DNA from: Clostridia bacterium | GTDB lineage: Bacteria > Bacillota_A > Clostridia > Oscillospirales > CAG-272 | Length of the DNA: 39,488 bases | Direction of reading: 5' to 3' | Assembly (NCBI GenBank): GCA_017462125.1 | Contig: JAFTRQ010000032.1 | Location: forward strand, 1-39,488 | In this document: piece by piece, positions 4,562 through 33,921 of the stretch | Layout of the letters: every line of letters begins with the position of its first letter | Numbering within the stretch: position 1 is the stretch's first letter | Notes under the pieces: model-generated | Told to the model about the DNA's origin: nothing | Seen by the model: only the letters and a program-made list of their open reading frames with translations | Databases searched by the model: none | Program-made: the position numbers and the translations under genes

Positions 4562-4599
4562 TTAATTTGAAATATATTTCTATTGTCGGAGGTATAAAA

Positions 4600-5466
4600 A
4601 TGAAAATAGGAATCACAGCGGGCTCATATACCCGTTACGGAATTTCCGAGGGCTCGAGAAAGGCCAAGGAGCACGGATACGATTGCTTCGATTACAGCAG
4701 ATTCGTCGATACCGAGACCGAGTTTTTTAAGCTTCCCGAGGCTGAATTCAAGGCGGAGATTGTGAAGCAGAGAGAGCTTATCGAGGCGGAGGGAATCGTT
4801 GTTTGGCAGGCGCACAGCCCTTGGCGGCATCCTGCAAGAGATTCGACACCCGAGGAGAGAGCGGAGAGACTTACCTCCTTCTTGAAGGCTATTCGCGGCG
4901 CGGGATATATCGGCGCGACCCACTTTGTCGTGCACGCTATTATGCCCTTTGGTACCAACAGCCCCGAGAATCCCGAGCTGATGCGGGATATGAATGCGGA
5001 GTTTATGGGCAGACTTGCAAAGGAGGCACAGGAATACGGTGTCAAGCATATCGACGTGGAAAACCTTCCTTTCCCCGCGCTTCCCATTAATCATACGAAC
5101 CAGTGCCTTGATTTTGCAAAGCGCATGAACAAGGAAACGAACAGCGATATCTTCAAGGTCTGCCTTGACACAGGCCACTCTAATTTCTGCGGTGAAAATC
5201 CTGCCGACGCTGTTAGAATGCTTGGCAAGGAATACTTGGGCTCGCTCCACGTTCACGATAACAACGGTAAGGCAGATCAGCATCTGACTCCCGGTAACGG
5301 AAACATCGATTGGGTCGATTTTTCCAACGCTCTTGCGGAGATCGGATTTGACGGCTGCTTCTCCTACGAAACCAACGTGCCCAACAGCATTCCTGCAGGC
5401 GAGGAGAGAGACCGCCTTGAAAGAGAGCTTGCGCAGACCGCGCTGAAGCTTGCAAAAAGGATATGA
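4600..5466 (+). CDS. Sugar phosphate isomerase/epimerase family TIM-barrel protein, copy 1
   Basis: The 288-aa protein belongs to the xylose-isomerase-like / AP-endonuclease-2 TIM-barrel superfamily, which uses bound divalent metal to isomerise or epimerise sugars, and also includes glycoside-eliminating enzymes. Candidate metal ligands lie in IDVENLPFP, CLDTGHSNFCG, LHVHDNNGKADQH and FSYET. ATG 4600 is preceded by GGAGG at 6-7 nt; an upstream in-frame TTG (4567) would begin before the ribosome binding site and is rejected. It is followed 29 nt later by a near-identical paralogue and then mgsA, apparently one operon. Substrate unknown; the family is too broad to name a reaction. Confidence 0.88.
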   Translation: MKIGITAGSYTRYGISEGSRKAKEHGYDCFDYSRFVDTETEFFKLPEAEFKAEIVKQRELIEAEGIVVWQAHSPWRHPARDSTPEERAERLTSFLKAIRGAGYIGATHFVVHAIMPFGTNSPENPELMRDMNAEFMGRLAKEAQEYGVKHIDVENLPFPALPINHTNQCLDFAKRMNKETNSDIFKVCLDTGHSNFCGENPADAVRMLGKEYLGSLHVHDNNGKADQHLTPGNGNIDWVDFSNALAEIGFDGCFSYETNVPNSIPAGEERDRLERELAQTALKLAKRI

Positions 5467-5495: not shown

Positions 5496-6362
5496 ATGAA
5501 AATAGGAATCACGGCGGGCTCGTATACCCGGTACGGAATCAGCGAGGGCGCGAGAAGAGCGAGAGCTCACGGCTACGATTGCTTTGATTTTGGAGGATTT
5601 ATCCATACGGAGACCGACTTCTTCAGATTGCCCGAGGCGGAATTCAAGGCTGATCTGACCCATCAGCGAGAGCTGATCGAGGCGGAAGGCATACAGATCT
5701 GGCAGGCGCACGCACCTTGGTGTTGTCCCGAAAGAGATCTGACTCCTGAGGGCAGGGCGGAGCAGCTGCGTTGCTATCTGAAGGCGGTGCGTGGCGCGGG
5801 ATATTTGGGTGCTACCCATTTTGTGATCCACGCCATTATGCCCTTTGGAATGAACAGCCCCGAGGATCCCAAGCTGATGCGGGATATAAACGCGGAGTTT
5901 ATGGGCAGACTTGCCGATGAGGCAAGGGAGTACGGTGTCAAGCATATCGACGTGGAAAATCTTCCTTTCCCCCTGCTCCCCATCAATCACACCCGACAGT
6001 GCCTTGACTTTGCAAAGCGTATGAATCAGGAAACGAACAGCGATATCTTCAAGGTCTGCCTTGATACGGGACACTCGAATTTCTGCGGAGAAAATCCCGC
6101 CGATGCTGTAAGAATGCTTGGCAAGCAATACCTCGGCGCGCTCCACGTTCACGATAACAACGGTAAGGCGGATCAACATTTCACGCCCGGAAACGGCAGT
6201 ATCGATTGGGTTGATTTCTCCAATGCCCTTGCGGAGATCGGGTTTGACGGTTGCCTTTCTTACGAGACGGCAGTATCGAACGAAATTCCCGAGGGAGAGC
6301 AGAGAGACCGCCTTGAAAAAGAGCTTGCGCAGTATGGGCACAGACTTGCAAAAAATAATTGA
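5496..6362 (+). CDS. Sugar phosphate isomerase/epimerase family TIM-barrel protein, copy 2
   Basis: Tandem paralogue of the preceding gene: also 288 aa, alignable without gaps, about 80% identical by my hand count (56 differences). The putative metal-ligand segments IDVENLPFP, CLDTGHSNFCG and LHVHDNNGKADQH are unchanged. Differences cluster at residues 30-85, for example YSRFVDTE versus FGGFIHTE and SPWRHPARD versus APWCCPERD, which would line the barrel mouth if the usual topology holds. The start ATG has no clear Shine-Dalgarno sequence, unlike copy 1, so it may be translated less or by coupling. Ten nucleotides separate it from mgsA. Confidence 0.88.
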   Translation: MKIGITAGSYTRYGISEGARRARAHGYDCFDFGGFIHTETDFFRLPEAEFKADLTHQRELIEAEGIQIWQAHAPWCCPERDLTPEGRAEQLRCYLKAVRGAGYLGATHFVIHAIMPFGMNSPEDPKLMRDINAEFMGRLADEAREYGVKHIDVENLPFPLLPINHTRQCLDFAKRMNQETNSDIFKVCLDTGHSNFCGENPADAVRMLGKQYLGALHVHDNNGKADQHFTPGNGSIDWVDFSNALAEIGFDGCLSYETAVSNEIPEGEQRDRLEKELAQYGHRLAKNN

Positions 6363-9219: not shown

Positions 9220-9370
9220 GTGCAAAGTAATCGATGGGTCTGAATCATAAAGCTCTCTTATACGGCATAAAAATTAAGACGTGCCTGCGTTTTAATGCCA
9301 ATCAATTCCCGATATGGGGAAGAAAAACAAAAAAAGCTTGGAAATGATCCAAAAAATTACCGCATTTCTA

Positions 9371-9399
9371 TTGCAAAATGAAAAGATTTGTGGTAAAAT
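9371..9399 (+). promoter_or_regulatory. Promoter of the uL15-like membrane protein gene
   Basis: TTGCAA (9371-9376), 17-nt spacer, TAAAAT (9394-9399). The transcript leader would be about 65 nt. AAAGGAG at about 9459-9465 is the ribosome binding site. Confidence 0.7.
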
Positions 9400-9471
9400 A
9401 ATAATAAGAACGCTTACAAAGCCGATTTTTGGGCTATAGTTTTTGATAATCATTGTAAAGGAGATGAATAT

Positions 9472-10329
9472 ATGCCTCAGGCTATCGGTTCCGAATATAG
9501 TACGTTGTCCAATATTCTGTATTGGATTTCGATCGTCCTCACCGTTTTGGTTTTCGTTCAGTTGATCCACTTTATCGTTTTGGTGGTAAAGATGTATAAG
9601 CGCCACAAGAAAAAGAAGGAGCTGTACGAAGAGAGAGAAGAAGCACTCGAGGAGGTCGAGGCGATCAATGAAGAAAATGCGAAAGCACAGGAGCAATCCG
9701 AAAAGGGCGGCGAAAAGCTGATGAGCCTTGCGGGTCTCTTCCTGCTTGCGGCATTTCCTACACAGCTGTTGGTAGTTTGTGTAATTTTGGCGCTTGAATG
9801 CGGTGCGCTTACTTTTTCCAATGCGTATATTACCAAGCAGCTTCAAAAGCCTATCGAGGAAGAGCCTGTTCCCGAGCCCGAGCCTATCCCCGAGCCCGAG
9901 CCCGAGCCCGTTCCTGCTCCTGCTCCCGTGGTCATTCCCGTCGTTGCTCCTGCAGGTCCCTCTGAGGACGAGGAGGTGCTCGTTGCGGGTCTTGTCCGTG
10001 AGACCATCACCATTGAAGAAGCGCATAACGCGATTCCCGATGACGTTGCGGCTCATTTCGTCGAGGTAAAGAAATCCGAGGAAGAAAAGAAGTATGCAAA
10101 GAAGTGCATTATCAATATCGATATTCTGTCGGAGCACTTTGCTACGGGTGAAACCGTGAATTTGGATACGCTTAAGGCGAAGGGCTTGTTGCCCCAGAAG
10201 GCTGATTTTGTCAAGGTGCTTGCCCGCGGTATGCTAGATAAGGCGCTGACGGTAGAGGCGCAGGATTTCTCTGCCGACGCGATCAAGATGATCATTCTTA
10301 CAGGCGGTAAGGTCATTAAAAAGGCTTAA
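9472..10329 (+). CDS. Membrane-anchored protein with uL15-like C-terminal domain
   Basis: A 285-aa protein in four parts. Residues 13-39 form a transmembrane helix. Residues 40-80 are a highly charged probable coiled coil (KRHKKKKELYEEREEALEEV). Residues 84-118 are hydrophobic and form one or two further helices. Residues 127-163 are a Pro-Glu/Pro-Ala linker. The C-terminal part (about 212-284) closely resembles the C-terminal half of ribosomal protein uL15: INIDILSEHFATGETVNLDTL, then AKGLLPQ, VKVLARGMLDKALTVEA, and FSADAIKMIILTGGKV. It is not the ribosomal L15 gene, because it lacks the N-terminal rRNA-binding part and ribosomal neighbours. It might tether something to the membrane; function unknown. 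Own promoter and terminator make it monocistronic. Confidence 0.8.
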   Translation: MPQAIGSEYSTLSNILYWISIVLTVLVFVQLIHFIVLVVKMYKRHKKKKELYEEREEALEEVEAINEENAKAQEQSEKGGEKLMSLAGLFLLAAFPTQLLVVCVILALECGALTFSNAYITKQLQKPIEEEPVPEPEPIPEPEPEPVPAPAPVVIPVVAPAGPSEDEEVLVAGLVRETITIEEAHNAIPDDVAAHFVEVKKSEEEKKYAKKCIINIDILSEHFATGETVNLDTLKAKGLLPQKADFVKVLARGMLDKALTVEAQDFSADAIKMIILTGGKVIKKA

Positions 10330-10342
10330 CCGACAGTACATA

Positions 10343-10381
10343 AAAAAACGACCGTCTCATGATGTGAGGCGGTCGTTTTTT
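10343..10381. terminator. Bidirectional terminator
   Basis: AAAAAACGACCG-T-CTCA pairs with TGAG-G-CGGTCGTTTTTT, with a short loop and a T-run on both strands. It ends the uL15-like gene and also the convergent regulator, whose stop codon (10380-10382) overlaps it. Confidence 0.92.
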
Positions 10382-22574: not shown

Positions 22575-23825
22575 ATGGAAAAAATCAGAATTGGTGTCTT
22601 CGGTGTCGGAAGAGGTATGGATATTGCCAAGAATTTTATGTTGCTTGGCTGTGATATTGTGGCTGTCTGCGACAATCATGCAGAGCGACTTCAACAGGTT
22701 GCGGCGACGTTGGATTGCTCGGTTGCGGTGTACGATGATTTCGATAAATTCATCGAGCACGATATGGACGCTGTGATTGTGGCGAACTTTTTCCACGAGC
22801 ACGCGCCCTATACTATACGCCTTTTTGAAAAGGGGATTCACGTTTTCTGCGAGTGCATAAGCAACGGCACCATGGCGGAGGGCGTTCAGCTTGTCAAGGC
22901 CTTTGAAAAGCACAAGTCCAAGGCTGTCTATATGCTGGCAGAGAATTATCCTCATATGAAGTTTAACCGCGAGATGAAGAGGATCTGTGACGGTGGCTCT
23001 TTGGGTAAGCTCCTGTATGCCGAGGGTGAGTACAATCATCCCGTTAACGCTGCCGATTGCGCGTTTACCAAGAGATACATTTACTCCGAGAACCATTGGC
23101 GCAACTATCTGCCCAGAACCTATTATATCACGCATTCTCTGAGTCCTATCATGTGGGCAACCGGAGCTACCCCCAAAAAGGTCACTGCCTTCAGCGTATT
23201 CGCTCCCATCAGGGGTGATGTTTCCAATGGCTGTTATGCAGGTGACAGTGCCTCTATCATAACCACACAGAACGATGACGGATCTGTATTCCACTTTACC
23301 GGCAGCGCAAAGTTCGGTGCGCATAACGTCACCTACCGTATCTGTGGCGCCAACGGCTCTGTGGAGAATATGCGCGGTATGGAGAATCAGATCATGCTTC
23401 GCTATAATGAGTGGTCGAAGCCCACGAAGGATACCCGCGCAACGTTGCGTTACGAGCCTCAGTGGAATGACCCCGACGAGGAGCTTATCAAGCATAGCGG
23501 ACACGGCGGAGGAGATTTCCTCGTTGCGAGAATGTTCCTCAACTGTATTCGCGAGAAGCGTCAGCCTGAGTTCCCGTTTGACCTTTATTCCTCTGTAAAT
23601 ATGTCAAGTGTTGCGATACTTGCCCAGAGATCGGTGCTGAATGGCGGTATGCCTTATGATATTCCCGATTTCCGTTGCGAGGAGGATTGCAAAAAGTACG
23701 AAAACGATTACGAAAGCCCCTTTTATTGCTCGGACGGCAGAGTGCCCACCATCCCTTGCTGTACCGATCCATCCTATAAGCCCACGGAGAAGCAGCTTGA
23801 GCTCTTCCGTGAGGTCATTAAATGA
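22575..23825 (+). CDS. Gfo/Idh/MocA-family protein, GH109-like, copy 1
   Basis: A 416-aa NAD(P)-dependent protein with an N-terminal Rossmann fold (IRIGVFGVGRGMD). At the position of the usual Glu-Lys-Pro motif of dehydrogenases it has E93-C94-I95 (HVFCECISNGTMAEG), so the conserved lysine is absent. Other segments resemble NAD-dependent glycosidases of GH109: AENY (122-125), AEGEYNH (149-155), WRNYLPRTYYITHSLSPI (175-192) and GHGGGDF (309-315). It may hydrolyse a glycoside by transient oxidation at C3 rather than act as a net dehydrogenase. GGAGG precedes ATG 22575. It is followed by a close paralogue 47 nt later. Substrate unknown. Confidence 0.85.
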   Translation: MEKIRIGVFGVGRGMDIAKNFMLLGCDIVAVCDNHAERLQQVAATLDCSVAVYDDFDKFIEHDMDAVIVANFFHEHAPYTIRLFEKGIHVFCECISNGTMAEGVQLVKAFEKHKSKAVYMLAENYPHMKFNREMKRICDGGSLGKLLYAEGEYNHPVNAADCAFTKRYIYSENHWRNYLPRTYYITHSLSPIMWATGATPKKVTAFSVFAPIRGDVSNGCYAGDSASIITTQNDDGSVFHFTGSAKFGAHNVTYRICGANGSVENMRGMENQIMLRYNEWSKPTKDTRATLRYEPQWNDPDEELIKHSGHGGGDFLVARMFLNCIREKRQPEFPFDLYSSVNMSSVAILAQRSVLNGGMPYDIPDFRCEEDCKKYENDYESPFYCSDGRVPTIPCCTDPSYKPTEKQLELFREVIK

Positions 23826-23872: not shown

Positions 23873-25117
23873 ATGAAAAGAATCAGAATAGGTGTCTTCG
23901 GAGCAGGAAGAGGAATGGATATCGCCAGAAATTTTATGCTTCTCGGCTGTGATATCGTTGCGCTTTGTGATAACAATACCGAGCGCAGAGAGCAAGCGGC
24001 AAAGACGCTTGACAGCAGCGTCGCGGTATATGACAATTTCGACGCGTTTATCGAGCACGATATGGATGCGATGATCGTCGCAAACTATTTCCATGAGCAC
24101 GCACCCTATGCGATCCGTTGCTTTGAAAAGGGAATTCACGTTTTCAGCGAATGTATCAGTAACGGCACGATGGCAGAGGGAATTGAGCTTCTTGATGCCT
24201 TTGAGAAGAGTAAATCGATCTATATGCTGGCGGAGAACTATCCTCAGATGCTTTTTAACCGCGAGATCAAGCGCATTTGCAGCGGAGGTACTCTTGGTAA
24301 GATACTTTACGCCGAGGGTGAATATAATCATCCCGGAGATCCCTTTGACGTTGCCTTCAAGAAGAGATATAACTATTTTGAAAAGCATTGGCGTAACTAT
24401 CTTCCGAGAGCTTATTACGTCACGCACTCTCTGGGGCCGATTATGTGGGCAACAGGCGCGACACCCAAGAAGGTAACCGCCTTCAGCGTTTTTGATCCCA
24501 TTACGGCAGAAGCTCCCACGGCAAGTAACGTAGGTGACCGTGTTTCGATCATCACCACGCAGAACGACGATGGCTCGGTGTTCCGCTTCGTGGGCTGTGC
24601 CGCATTCGGTGCACATCATAACGCGTACCGCGTTTGCGGAGTGAACGGTCAGATCGAAAATCTTCGCGGAATGGGTGCGCAGGTTATGCTCCGATATAAC
24701 TCCTGGACCAAGCCAACCCCCGATACCCCTGAAAACTCGCTTTACACTCCCGATTGGAACGATGCCGACGAGGAGATCATCAAAACAAGCGGCCACGGTG
24801 GCGGTGATTACCTGACCGCAAGAATGTTCCTTGACTGTATCCGTGAAAACCGTCAGCCCGAGCATCCCTTTGATATTTATTCCGCGGTGAATATGTCCTC
24901 GGTTGCCATTCTTGCGCACAGATCTGTGTTAAACGGCGGAGTGCCCTACGATATCCCCGATTTCCGTACCGAAGAAGCAAGAGCGCAGTATAAGGATGAC
25001 CGTGAAACCCCATTCTATGGCGAAAACGGAACAGTTCCCACCATCCCTTGCTGTACCAATCCCGACTTTAAGCCTACAGAGAAGCAGGTGGAGCTTTTCA
25101 GAGAGGTTATTAAATAA
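23873..25117 (+). CDS. Gfo/Idh/MocA-family protein, GH109-like, copy 2
   Basis: A 414-aa tandem paralogue of the preceding gene, clearly most similar to it over the whole length. It shares every unusual feature: GVFGAGRGMD, HVFSECISNGTMAEG in place of an EKP motif, AENYP, AEGEYNHPG, YYVTHSLGPIMWATG and GHGGGDY. Differences are concentrated in residues 155-175 and 210-225, likely substrate loops. GGAGAA with a 7-nt spacing is the ribosome binding site. It is probably co-transcribed with copy 1 and ended by the hairpin at 25167-25226. The two may form hetero-oligomers or handle related glycosides. Confidence 0.85.
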   Translation: MKRIRIGVFGAGRGMDIARNFMLLGCDIVALCDNNTERREQAAKTLDSSVAVYDNFDAFIEHDMDAMIVANYFHEHAPYAIRCFEKGIHVFSECISNGTMAEGIELLDAFEKSKSIYMLAENYPQMLFNREIKRICSGGTLGKILYAEGEYNHPGDPFDVAFKKRYNYFEKHWRNYLPRAYYVTHSLGPIMWATGATPKKVTAFSVFDPITAEAPTASNVGDRVSIITTQNDDGSVFRFVGCAAFGAHHNAYRVCGVNGQIENLRGMGAQVMLRYNSWTKPTPDTPENSLYTPDWNDADEEIIKTSGHGGGDYLTARMFLDCIRENRQPEHPFDIYSAVNMSSVAILAHRSVLNGGVPYDIPDFRTEEARAQYKDDRETPFYGENGTVPTIPCCTNPDFKPTEKQVELFREVIK

Positions 25118-30768: not shown

Positions 30769-32268
30769 ATGAAAAGATTTATTTCTGTATTGATCGTATT
30801 TTCTATGTTGCTGTCGGCTTTGGCGCTTGCAGCTTGTGAAGATAAGGAAGGGGCAGAGCGGGAATCGGATACTGAAGGGAAGGTAATATCTGCCGCAACC
30901 GATATAACTCCCTCGGAAACCGAGACGGAAGAGGCAGGCGACGTTCCGGATATCGACGTTAAAAATTACGGAGACACGGTGTACTTGACTGTACAGAGTG
31001 ACAACCGTATGGACACTATTTGGGCAGAGGAAAGCTCAGCGGACGCTATGTCACAGGCGTTGTATGACAGACAGATGAAGGTCAAGGATCATATCGGTGT
31101 CGACATATATGCAAAGGATGCGGGGCGTCCCGCGGAATACGCCGCGCCCTTTATGACCGCAGTGAAGTCAAAGGATGGCTCGGTGGACGTGCTGCTTGCC
31201 TGCTCCTACGTTGGAATCACTTCTATCATACAGGGCGGATATATTCAGGATCTGAACAATATTCCCGAGCTTGATCTGGAAGCGGATTATTGGAATGTTG
31301 ATTATATGGACAGTATTGCGATCGAGGGCAAAAGATATCTGGGCTACAGCGATATGAATATGGCCAAAACTCACGTGATCACCTTTAATAAGGATATCAT
31401 GGAGCAGTATAGCGATGCGTTGGACGAATCGGTTTATGACAGCGTTCGCAATTATCATTGGACCATTGATGAAATGATCTCGCTTGCAAATCTTGTTTAC
31501 GTTGACAGTACGTCGGACGGAAAAACCGTGGATGATACCTTTGGCCTCGTAGGCAAGCAGTGGATCCCGTTTATCATATTCGGATCCTCCTGCAATATCA
31601 AGTACGTGGATATGAATGAGCAGGGCGAGTATGCTGTGTCGGTCTATAACGATGTGAACAAGAGCAAGATGGCTACGCTTATTGATAAGCTGTCAACCCT
31701 TGCGGCCTCGGATTCCGCATGGCTTTGGGATAACAGCAATACGACTCCCGAGACCTATCTCTACGACGGCAGAGCTCTGATGGAGCTCCGTCACACGCAT
31801 AATGTGATCGAATACCTCAATCATGACGTGAACTTTGGTATGCTTCCTTACCCGATGTTTGATGAGGCGCAGAAGGACGTGGGTTATCTCTCCCTGAACT
31901 GGGACGGATATATCTGTATGCCCTCTTATATCAGAAATCAGACTATGGCTGCCGAGACTGTGGAGTTGCTTTCACACTATAGCGACAACGTAAGGCTGAC
32001 CTACTATGAAAAGCTGCTTGGCAAGCAGGTTGCGGATGCACCCGATGACAAGCAGATGTTGGATATTATCTGGGACAGTATTGTCAGTGATTTCGGTCTG
32101 ACTTATATGAGCATTGACGTCAGCTTGAATAATATATTCTATATGATCCCAATGCTGACGCTTCCTCATTCTACGTATGAGCTGGCATCCTTCGTTCAGA
32201 CTAACGAAAGAACAGCGAATAAGAAGATTTCAAAGTTCATCAAGGAAGTGCAGAGCGCTGCCAATTAA
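30769..32268 (+). CDS. Extracellular solute-binding lipoprotein 1
   Basis: A 499-aa secreted lipoprotein. The signal peptide (1-22) ends in a lipobox LAAC with Cys23 as the lipidated residue, followed by a Glu/Thr/Ser-rich tether (about 24-62). The mature part is of the ABC sugar-binding type 1 fold: DVLLACSYVGITSIIQGGYI, NIPELDLEADYWN, HVITFNKDIMEQY, HWTIDEMISLANLVY and a C-terminal MPSYIRNQTMAAETVELL. It should deliver a carbohydrate to an ABC importer, but no permease or ATPase gene is in the window. GAGGATTTT is the ribosome binding site, and the gene is co-oriented with the epimerases. A paralogue lies convergently downstream. Confidence 0.87.
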   Translation: MKRFISVLIVFSMLLSALALAACEDKEGAERESDTEGKVISAATDITPSETETEEAGDVPDIDVKNYGDTVYLTVQSDNRMDTIWAEESSADAMSQALYDRQMKVKDHIGVDIYAKDAGRPAEYAAPFMTAVKSKDGSVDVLLACSYVGITSIIQGGYIQDLNNIPELDLEADYWNVDYMDSIAIEGKRYLGYSDMNMAKTHVITFNKDIMEQYSDALDESVYDSVRNYHWTIDEMISLANLVYVDSTSDGKTVDDTFGLVGKQWIPFIIFGSSCNIKYVDMNEQGEYAVSVYNDVNKSKMATLIDKLSTLAASDSAWLWDNSNTTPETYLYDGRALMELRHTHNVIEYLNHDVNFGMLPYPMFDEAQKDVGYLSLNWDGYICMPSYIRNQTMAAETVELLSHYSDNVRLTYYEKLLGKQVADAPDDKQMLDIIWDSIVSDFGLTYMSIDVSLNNIFYMIPMLTLPHSTYELASFVQTNERTANKKISKFIKEVQSAAN

Positions 32269-32430: not shown

Positions 32431-33921
32431 TTAATGTCCGTTTGCCTTCAAGGTTTTTATGTATTTGGCGAGAGCCTTGTTGGCGGCGGATTCGCAGGAA
32501 CTGATGTAGGACGCTACGTTGAGAGTGCTGTTAACGTAGGAAACCTCGGGAAGCATATAGAGCAGGTCGCCAAGAGAAGTGCCGATGGAAGTATAGGTCA
32601 AGCCGATATCAGATACGATGCCTCCCCATACAAGATCAAGCATTTGGCTGTCGTCGGGCGCGTCCGATGCTTGCTTGCCCAAAATCTTTTCATAAAAGGT
32701 CTTTCTTACGTCATCACTGTAATAGGAGAGCAGCTCTACGGTCTCTGCGGCCATTTCGGGAGCTTCGATATAGGCGGGCATGCAGATATATCCGTCCCAG
32801 TTCAGGGAGAGGTAACCCACGTCCTTCTGCGTTTCATCCAGCATGGGATATGGCAGGATTCCGTAGTCAACGTCATAGTTGAGATAGGTCACCACTCTGT
32901 AAGTGGGAACAAGCTCCATTAAGGTGTTACCCTCATATAGGTGAATTTGGGTCGTACCCTCATTTTTAAACCAGAACCAAGAGGAGTCTGCTGCGGCAAG
33001 AGCGGTCAGCTTTTCCACCAACGTTGTGGTTTTTGCTTTGTTCAGGTCGTTGTAGATCGAGACCTTCAATTCGCCCTTTTCATTGGGCTCTACGTATTTG
33101 ATATTGGAGCTGGTTGCGAAAACGAGGAAGGGGATCCATTGGTTTCCCGTGATTCCAAAGGTGTCGTCCGCGGTTTTTCCGTCCGCGGTGTTGTCAATAT
33201 AGACCTCGCTTGTAAGCGATAACATCTTATCCAATGTCCAACGGTAGCCTCGTACAGTATCATAGATCGATTCGCCCAACGAATCTCCGTATTTTGCCAT
33301 CATTTCCTTGTTGAAAAGGATCATGTGTGCCTTTGCCAGATTGTAGTTGCTGTAGCCAAGGTAGATCGCATCGCTGACGGTCAGATTTTCCATATATTCG
33401 CGGTTCCAATAGTCGGCATCCAGATCAAGCTCGCTGAAGTTGCGCAGATCCTGCAGGTATCCCTCTGATATCAATCCCGCTACACCGAGATATGGGTTAG
33501 GAAGCAGAACGTCAACCGAGCCATCCTTGTTTCTCACGGCGGTTTTGAAGGGATCGATATAGCCGTTGGCAACGTTTGTGCCAATGATGTCAACGCCGAG
33601 ATGATCCTTGATCTTCAATTGTCTCTCGTAAACGGCTTGAGACATCGCGTCACCCTTGCTTTCCTCTACCCACATAAGATCAAACCAGTTGTCGGTCTGA
33701 ATGGTCATGTACAGGGTGTCGTTATAATTCTTTTGGGCGATTTCAGGTGCGGGAGCGGTCTCTTGTTCAAGAGCGGTGGTGCTTTCCGTAGCGGAGATCT
33801 CGGAAACAGCAGATTGCTCGCTGCCTGTCTCTTTTTCGCCATCGTCACAGGCGACCAACATAAGTTGGGAAAGCAAAACCGTAAGTAATAAAACGATAGA
33901 AATTATACGTGTTTTAACCAT
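32431..33921 (-). CDS. Extracellular solute-binding lipoprotein 2
   Basis: A 496-aa paralogue of the lipoprotein at 30769, in opposite orientation. The signal peptide ends in lipobox LVAC (Cys25), then a Ser/Thr/Glu-rich tether to about residue 62. The shared core is clear (KDGSVDVLLPNPYLG, ELDLDADYWNREY, VGYLSLNWDGYICMPAYI). By eye about 55-60% of the aligned core is identical. The ends differ more, notably RPAEY versus ANGYID near residue 110, where ligand specificity could lie. AAGGAG is the ribosome binding site; a perfect promoter lies 70 nt upstream of the start. No transporter genes adjoin. Confidence 0.87.
   Translation of the reverse strand: MVKTRIISIVLLLTVLLSQLMLVACDDGEKETGSEQSAVSEISATESTTALEQETAPAPEIAQKNYNDTLYMTIQTDNWFDLMWVEESKGDAMSQAVYERQLKIKDHLGVDIIGTNVANGYIDPFKTAVRNKDGSVDVLLPNPYLGVAGLISEGYLQDLRNFSELDLDADYWNREYMENLTVSDAIYLGYSNYNLAKAHMILFNKEMMAKYGDSLGESIYDTVRGYRWTLDKMLSLTSEVYIDNTADGKTADDTFGITGNQWIPFLVFATSSNIKYVEPNEKGELKVSIYNDLNKAKTTTLVEKLTALAAADSSWFWFKNEGTTQIHLYEGNTLMELVPTYRVVTYLNYDVDYGILPYPMLDETQKDVGYLSLNWDGYICMPAYIEAPEMAAETVELLSYYSDDVRKTFYEKILGKQASDAPDDSQMLDLVWGGIVSDIGLTYTSIGTSLGDLLYMLPEVSYVNSTLNVASYISSCESAANKALAKYIKTLKANGH

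Follow-up and report, generated by a model that had tools for sequence, protein, structure and literature searches.

To our knowledge, ribosomal protein domains seldom occur outside translation. The closest described relative of the protein considered here is the C-terminal globular domain of uL15 (rplO; Pfam PF00828), which agrees with it in fold and core motif along some 75 residues. The sister of uL15 in PF00828, archaeal and eukaryotic eL18 (L18e), is ribosomal and not membrane-bound, and matches the protein more weakly than uL15 (21.7 bits, cut-off 85). In gut bacteria, surface proteins with MBG or Listeria-Bacteroides (Flg_new) repeats generally terminate either with a sorting signal or with a simple anchor. 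Such proteins are the upstream partner or the fused ectodomain of several members of the family described here, in which, unlike in ordinary MBG/Flg_new proteins, a folded domain of ribosomal type follows the anchor. TonB-type Pro/Glu spacers are similar in composition to the tether of the protein, but the TonB matches are weak and below cut-off, the likeness is one of low complexity only, and a uL15 domain stands where TonB has its own C-terminal domain. The protein, P0001, is a membrane protein of 285 residues with a uL15 tail, and its gene lies on the forward strand at 9472..10329, stop codon included (ORF list and homologues), of the window, that is, the whole stretch of 39,488 nucleotides that was analysed. 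It differs from uL15 (rplO) in being a membrane protein, in the missing N-terminal half, in changes at domain positions 55, 58 and 64 and in its separation in trees from the rplO of 18 hosts. While the uL15 domain itself is known, its use at the very end of envelope proteins and giant surface proteins seems to be undescribed in the literature searched, the available parts of which yielded no description of a uL15 tail on membrane or giant surface proteins. This agrees with the first-pass annotation, which knew of no described function, though an automatic NCBI name, 'uL15 family ribosomal protein', exists; it is carried by two of the 81 homologues, and one more is named ribosomal protein L15 by its source.

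The C-terminus of P0001 is a true uL15 C-terminal domain. It matches PF00828 (Ribosomal_L27A) with 52.6 bits against a cut-off of 21.5, over model positions 1-72 of 72. The last ~75 residues give a confident AlphaFold2 (AF2) model, and a structure search returns ribosomal uL15, with 18-35% identity among the 50 structure alignments listed; the domain has the uL15/L18e fold. The first-pass annotation had noticed from the letters alone that the C-terminus follows uL15, and had named the lack of a profile match or an unrelated predicted fold as grounds for withdrawing this; both the profile search and the structure prediction bear it out. Chance similarity or misannotation of the domain is ruled out by the profile and structure matches. 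That the whole protein is a misannotation, a fortuitous similarity or a frame artefact has a negligible probability: the sole point in favour of an artefact, an open frame on the minus strand as well (9292-10137), is countered by the PF00828 match, the AF2 model, the structure search and the homologues.

P0001 is not rplO. It fails the rplO equivalog TIGR01071 (41.6 vs 77.95 bits), of which only model positions 69-143 are matched, and where rplO has a basic Gly-rich N-terminal extension (about residues 1-70), P0001 has membrane helices and a Pro/Glu linker. This extension is present in 19 host rplO frames, namely 18 that were aligned and L093. A search for a normal rplO elsewhere, as proposed in the first-pass annotation, was made in 20 genomes picked from the 80 tail loci; a frame of rplO size (146-184 aa) was found in 19 of them, while G004 is without one. 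PF00828 has 49 matches in the 20 genomes, 30 of which, one to four per genome, are not of rplO size.

The gene for P0001 seems to stand alone. On its left is a divergent gene for EutH (PF04346; 8071-9225), and on its right a convergent, regulator-like frame with no Pfam match; with these two neighbours in the window, the context of the spc (ribosomal-protein) operon is absent around the gene. A consensus scan gives a promoter-like site on the forward strand (TTGCAA, 17 nt and a TG-extended TAAAAT; 9371..9399), which is weak because the region has four such sites and shuffling predicts 1.7. A ribosome-binding site, AAAGGAG, is read from the sequence on the same strand (9457..9463). The gene is followed by a hairpin terminator (10343..10381, assigned to neither strand; fold -26 kcal/mol, z -7.9), which is absent from the list of a simple scan and was scored by folding; it is T-rich on both sides and therefore usable in both directions. 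The window has no tRNA and nothing that reaches the gathering score of an Rfam model. Elsewhere in the window, two pairs of adjacent genes are highly similar by eye and probably arose by tandem duplication, one sugar-isomerase/epimerase-like (4567-5466 and 5496-6362) and the other oxidoreductase-like (22575-23825 and 23873-25117). Two similar lipoprotein-like genes, by eye of the solute-binding type, form a convergent pair (30769-32268 on the forward and 32431-33921 on the reverse strand).

All parts of P0001 are given here on the forward strand. Transmembrane helix 1 (residues 14-40; 9511..9591), its ends set by eye in an AF2 helix of residues 5-70, probably has its N-terminus outside. A K/R-rich segment and charged coil follow (residues 41-83; 9592..9720), placed on the cytoplasmic side from K+R counts in 32 homologues, and then a second hydrophobic segment (residues 84-120; 9721..9831), tentatively read as a hairpin with a central Pro. 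A Pro/Glu-rich linker (residues 127-164; 9850..9963), with 15 Pro and 8 Glu among 38 residues and pLDDT below 50 at residues 150-158, leads to a conserved EEA helix module (residues 165-203; 9964..10080) and to the uL15 (Ribosomal_L27A) domain (residues 207-285, Pfam core 213-282; 10090..10326), delimited by the profile, the AF2 model and the structure search. This order of transmembrane helices, charged coil and Pro-Glu linker before the uL15 part had been observed correctly in the first-pass annotation. Among the 32 relatives picked from the 81 homologues for topology and conservation, mean pairwise identity is 30% in the membrane part, 57% in the EEA module and 68% in the uL15 domain.

In these homologues, the N-tail before helix 1 has 0.09 K+R on average, and the stretch after it 6.6, with at least two in 32/32. 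The second hydrophobic segment is 36-44 residues long (37 in P0001), and residues 118-128 behind it contain at least two K/R in 24 of the 32. We infer that this segment forms a hairpin in P0001, so that the uL15 tail would be cytosolic. A single second membrane pass would instead place the domain outside; AF2 gives one helix at residues 98-125, with low confidence upstream of residue 98. Judged by eye and from hydropathy, the cytosolic side also fits short relatives whose single helix is followed by K, and relatives with an ectodomain between two helices. It agrees with L059, a tail protein without a membrane helix, and with proteins that own the unnamed middle domain described below, where no membrane helix is evident by eye. 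On the other hand, P0073 and L066 (L066:2322-3725) conflict with an arrangement of repeats outside and tail inside: a Flg_new-type repeat, assigned by Pfam match for P0073 and by eye for L066, comes after their membrane helix and before the middle domain, and shares a side with the uL15 tail. All in all, the tail probably lies on the cytosolic side; charges and homologues support a domain that is exposed to the cytoplasm and carried by a flexible tether, either Pro/Glu-rich or acidic. The first-pass annotation, which had put a uL15 fold on a membrane protein and under the membrane, is thus in keeping with the positive-inside pattern.

Proteins with such a tail make up a large family, which occurs in uncultured Clostridia and Bacilli of the gut. 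Among the 7993 candidates sharing most words, which alone were scored in the protein database search, there are 81 homologues including P0001, all with PF00828. A scan of genome contigs with P0001 alone gave 68 pattern stretches and no relative, and a scan with alignment A2 gave 273 relatives among 286 stretches. The best 80 of these 273 make up the locus set and come, by record title, from uncultured Clostridia, Borkfalkia and other chicken-gut genera, Anaeroplasmataceae, Mollicutes and Bacilli. In the order of genome G001, 129 of 147 genomes matched; judged by match span and frame, only G001 and G151 have the tail type, the remaining matching genomes having frames of rplO size. In the order of G010, 24 of 151 genomes matched at E <= 1e-18, including the known positives G010, G011 and G014, and 11 of the 35 matches lie in frames of at least 1491 aa.

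The last domain of these mostly membrane-anchored proteins is the C-terminal half of uL15 only, followed by at most 8 residues in 80/80 loci and at most 25 in 81/81 homologues. The region before it usually starts with a membrane helix and continues through a tether, either Pro/Glu-rich or acidic, to the EEA helix motif, which the middle domain often precedes; P0001 has this layout with its anchor, tether, EEA module and terminal uL15 domain. Of 161 tail proteins, 121 have the strict EEA motif and 141 the loose one, as compared with 2 and 15, respectively, of 722 other genes of the loci. Frame lengths range from 167 to 1998 aa among 68 tail frames intact at the 5' end. Tail frames exceed 1000 aa in nine of the 80 loci (L020, L030, L034, L037, L040, L044, L061, L068 and L074), and two of these nine, giants with full stop-to-stop frames of 5220 and 5092 aa, carry MBG surface repeats.

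In some family members, the uL15 tail is fused to, or encoded right after, a large surface protein. In L030, L044 and L068, one frame encodes MBG repeats followed by a membrane helix, then a second hydrophobic segment, an acidic tether and the middle domain, and finally the uL15 tail. L014 and L017 have this arrangement divided between two genes separated by 8 bases, and their upstream proteins share one similarity cluster with the three fused proteins. The split form is also seen in L043, L048, L053, L054 and L075; seven tail genes start 2-24 bases after the gene of a large protein whose C-terminus is a membrane helix, representing fewer than seven independent cases because L014/L017 and L053/L054 look like related pairs. 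When each tail gene was paired with the same-strand upstream gene within 60 bases, in the 68 of 80 loci that have the tail in the gene list, a large upstream protein with a C-terminal membrane helix was found in 7 of 17 tail pairs vs 3 of 225 background pairs, i.e. the other pairs of the same loci. The p-value (Fisher, 2.4e-7) is only indicative, because the first examples had already been seen when the criteria were chosen, and because some of the loci are related to one another. Among the five of the seven upstream proteins that were scanned, four have surface repeats: MBG (MBG_2/MBG_3) in L014 and L043, and Flg_new, with 8 and 11 stretches, in L053 and L054, respectively. The scan found no surface domain in the upstream protein of L048.

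The tail domains differ from rplO at basic positions. P0001 has E262, D265 and I271, i.e. acidic, acidic and hydrophobic residues, at domain positions 55, 58 and 64, which we take to be rRNA contacts in uL15. Position 55 is K/R in 18/18 host rplO vs 19 of 147 distinct tail domains, being acidic in 113 of them; position 58 is basic in 15/18 vs 1/147, and acidic in 122 tails; position 64 is basic in 16/18 host rplO vs 2 of 161 tail rows. L093, a further host rplO with V at position 55 and K at 58, is part neither of these counts nor of the two trees below. Both basic residues, at 55 and 58, are retained in a single tail, P0080. Among ten Bacilli-titled tails, four have E, three K and three V at position 55, and position 58 is D in 10/10. 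The conserved set specific to tails, taken from the 81 homologues and one locus, is D10, K50, E55, D58, D62, K65, M66, L69 and T70. Since charges are reversed at likely RNA-contact positions, the tail probably docks another protein, and not the ribosome.

In a first tree, 47 tails and 18 host rplO domains lie on opposite sides of one branch (99/98). A second tree, with ten Bacilli- or Mollicutes-titled tails, was built because the locus rows of the first were all titled as Clostridia or lacked a Bacilli title; here the rplO domains are again on one side of a branch (96/91). Both trees are unrooted and short (77 and 76 columns), each with 47 of the 161 tail rows, and the bootstrap of the first had not settled. 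Long rows are P0078 and P0080 in the first tree and P0081 in the second, where it is a long branch meeting the rplO group. A recent copy of the host rplO is not supported, as tails and the 18 host rplO fall on two sides of a branch in both trees. The ten Bacilli-titled tails are not grouped; they require five changes on the tree, of which the starred branches force at least two, and transfer or repeated loss is therefore likely. The pattern fits a single origin of the tails followed by transfer. A phage or plasmid gene was considered as well and rejected: tblastn of P0001 gave no match in either of the two collections, and there was no PHROGs match.

We lean, with modest confidence, towards a tail exapted for docking at the inner face of the membrane, because a conserved, charge-remodelled fold ends a flexible tether on otherwise unlike membrane proteins. 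The tail would lose canonical rRNA binding, and its newly conserved charged surface would hold a cytosolic protein partner or other tails, so that the docked tail might anchor, cluster or position envelope proteins at the inner face. P0001 would be the stand-alone form, with anchor, tether, EEA module and uL15 tail and no ectodomain. Of the two ideas of the first-pass annotation, an exapted protein-protein module thus fits better. The other, recruitment of ribosomes or RNA, in which the domain tethers 50S subunits, assembly intermediates or RNA to the membrane and aids, for example, translation and export of giant surface proteins, is the main rival but appears unlikely. The fold is truly that of uL15, giant frames are among the linked cargo, and the mean net charge of the domain is still slightly positive, at 2.9 in tails (81 homologues and one locus) vs 1.7 in rplO. 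A few tails also lie by translation genes: L059:8651-12942 by rpsL-rpsG-fusA-tuf and L010:920-2002 by infC-rplT (both named by eye), and L003:6544-7122, of the L003 lineage, beside an EngB-like GTPase (by eye). The neighbours considered were 78 immediate ones of 110-520 aa from 68 of the 80 loci, six near-identical Anaeroplasmataceae loci being skipped; 67 of them were scanned, and the 11 left out are mostly opposite-strand frames with a spurious look. Pfam finds among the 67 one S12, one IF3 and two L19, the L19 neighbours belonging to two more tail loci, by size L050 and L058. The commonest family is the iron alcohol dehydrogenase (Fe-ADH; 8/67), and no steady translation or cytosolic partner gene was seen among the 67 neighbours scanned (25 commonest of 63 families). 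Against recruitment also speak the canonical basic positions, reversed or lost in most tails (55 and 58 being mostly acidic), and the missing N-terminal half of uL15. The uL15 site on the mature ribosome is already taken, and the tail of the fused giants is made last and therefore too late to help its own chain.

The tail might also be a passive knob, a small stable fold that only blocks export or degradation of the C-terminus and has no specific partner. It is always at the extreme C-terminus in the set examined, on diverse proteins and behind a long tether, as this would predict; the constraint, with 68% mean identity and conserved tail-specific residues, exceeds the need of a generic plug, and L059 bears the tail without a membrane helix, which makes a mere knob quite improbable. 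The layout of the giants, i.e. an ectodomain, the membrane, a long tether and a conserved domain, would suit outside-in signalling, in which the tail is the cytosolic output of a receptor and releases or recruits a regulator upon engagement of the ectodomain. On the other hand, none of the scanned tail proteins (20 with Pfam, 8 with NCBIfam) has a kinase, HTH or protease domain above its cut-off, a winged-helix match in L038 staying below it (19.9 vs 28 bits), and the stand-alone form P0001 has no ectodomain; signalling is given slightly less credence still than the knob. An extension of the docking-tail reading is conceivable, if rather doubtful as a whole: a ribosomal domain may have turned, perhaps once, into an inner-face coupling tag for giant adhesins and spread in gut Clostridia and Bacilli, and the tag on both anchors and surface proteins would gather them round one cytosolic machine, possibly the translation or secretion apparatus.

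The family is a clean case of exaptation, in which membrane proteins and giant surface proteins consistently end in a ribosomal domain whose charges are changed at likely RNA positions. It offers a handle on how the mostly uncultured gut Clostridia may arrange their largest surface proteins from within. It is also a warning for annotation, because the automatic name quoted above can put envelope proteins in the ribosome.

Ahead of the EEA/uL15 tail, 64 of the 80 tail loci have the middle domain once, twice or three times, some of them cut by contig ends. The members scanned gave it no name from Pfam, NCBIfam or PHROGs; it is folded and compact, with pLDDT ~97 and the motif SFxAKLIQ...RGKTLCLYLALDP (e.g. 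P0057 residues 114-270). The domain also occurs in tail-less proteins with a Cys-rich N-terminus (e.g. L036:8566-9681), a form with 180 homologues; one among the 120 listed has a name from its source, 'hypothetical'. In L066 and L079, the tail is spread across two frames, by assembly error, pseudogene formation or frameshift.
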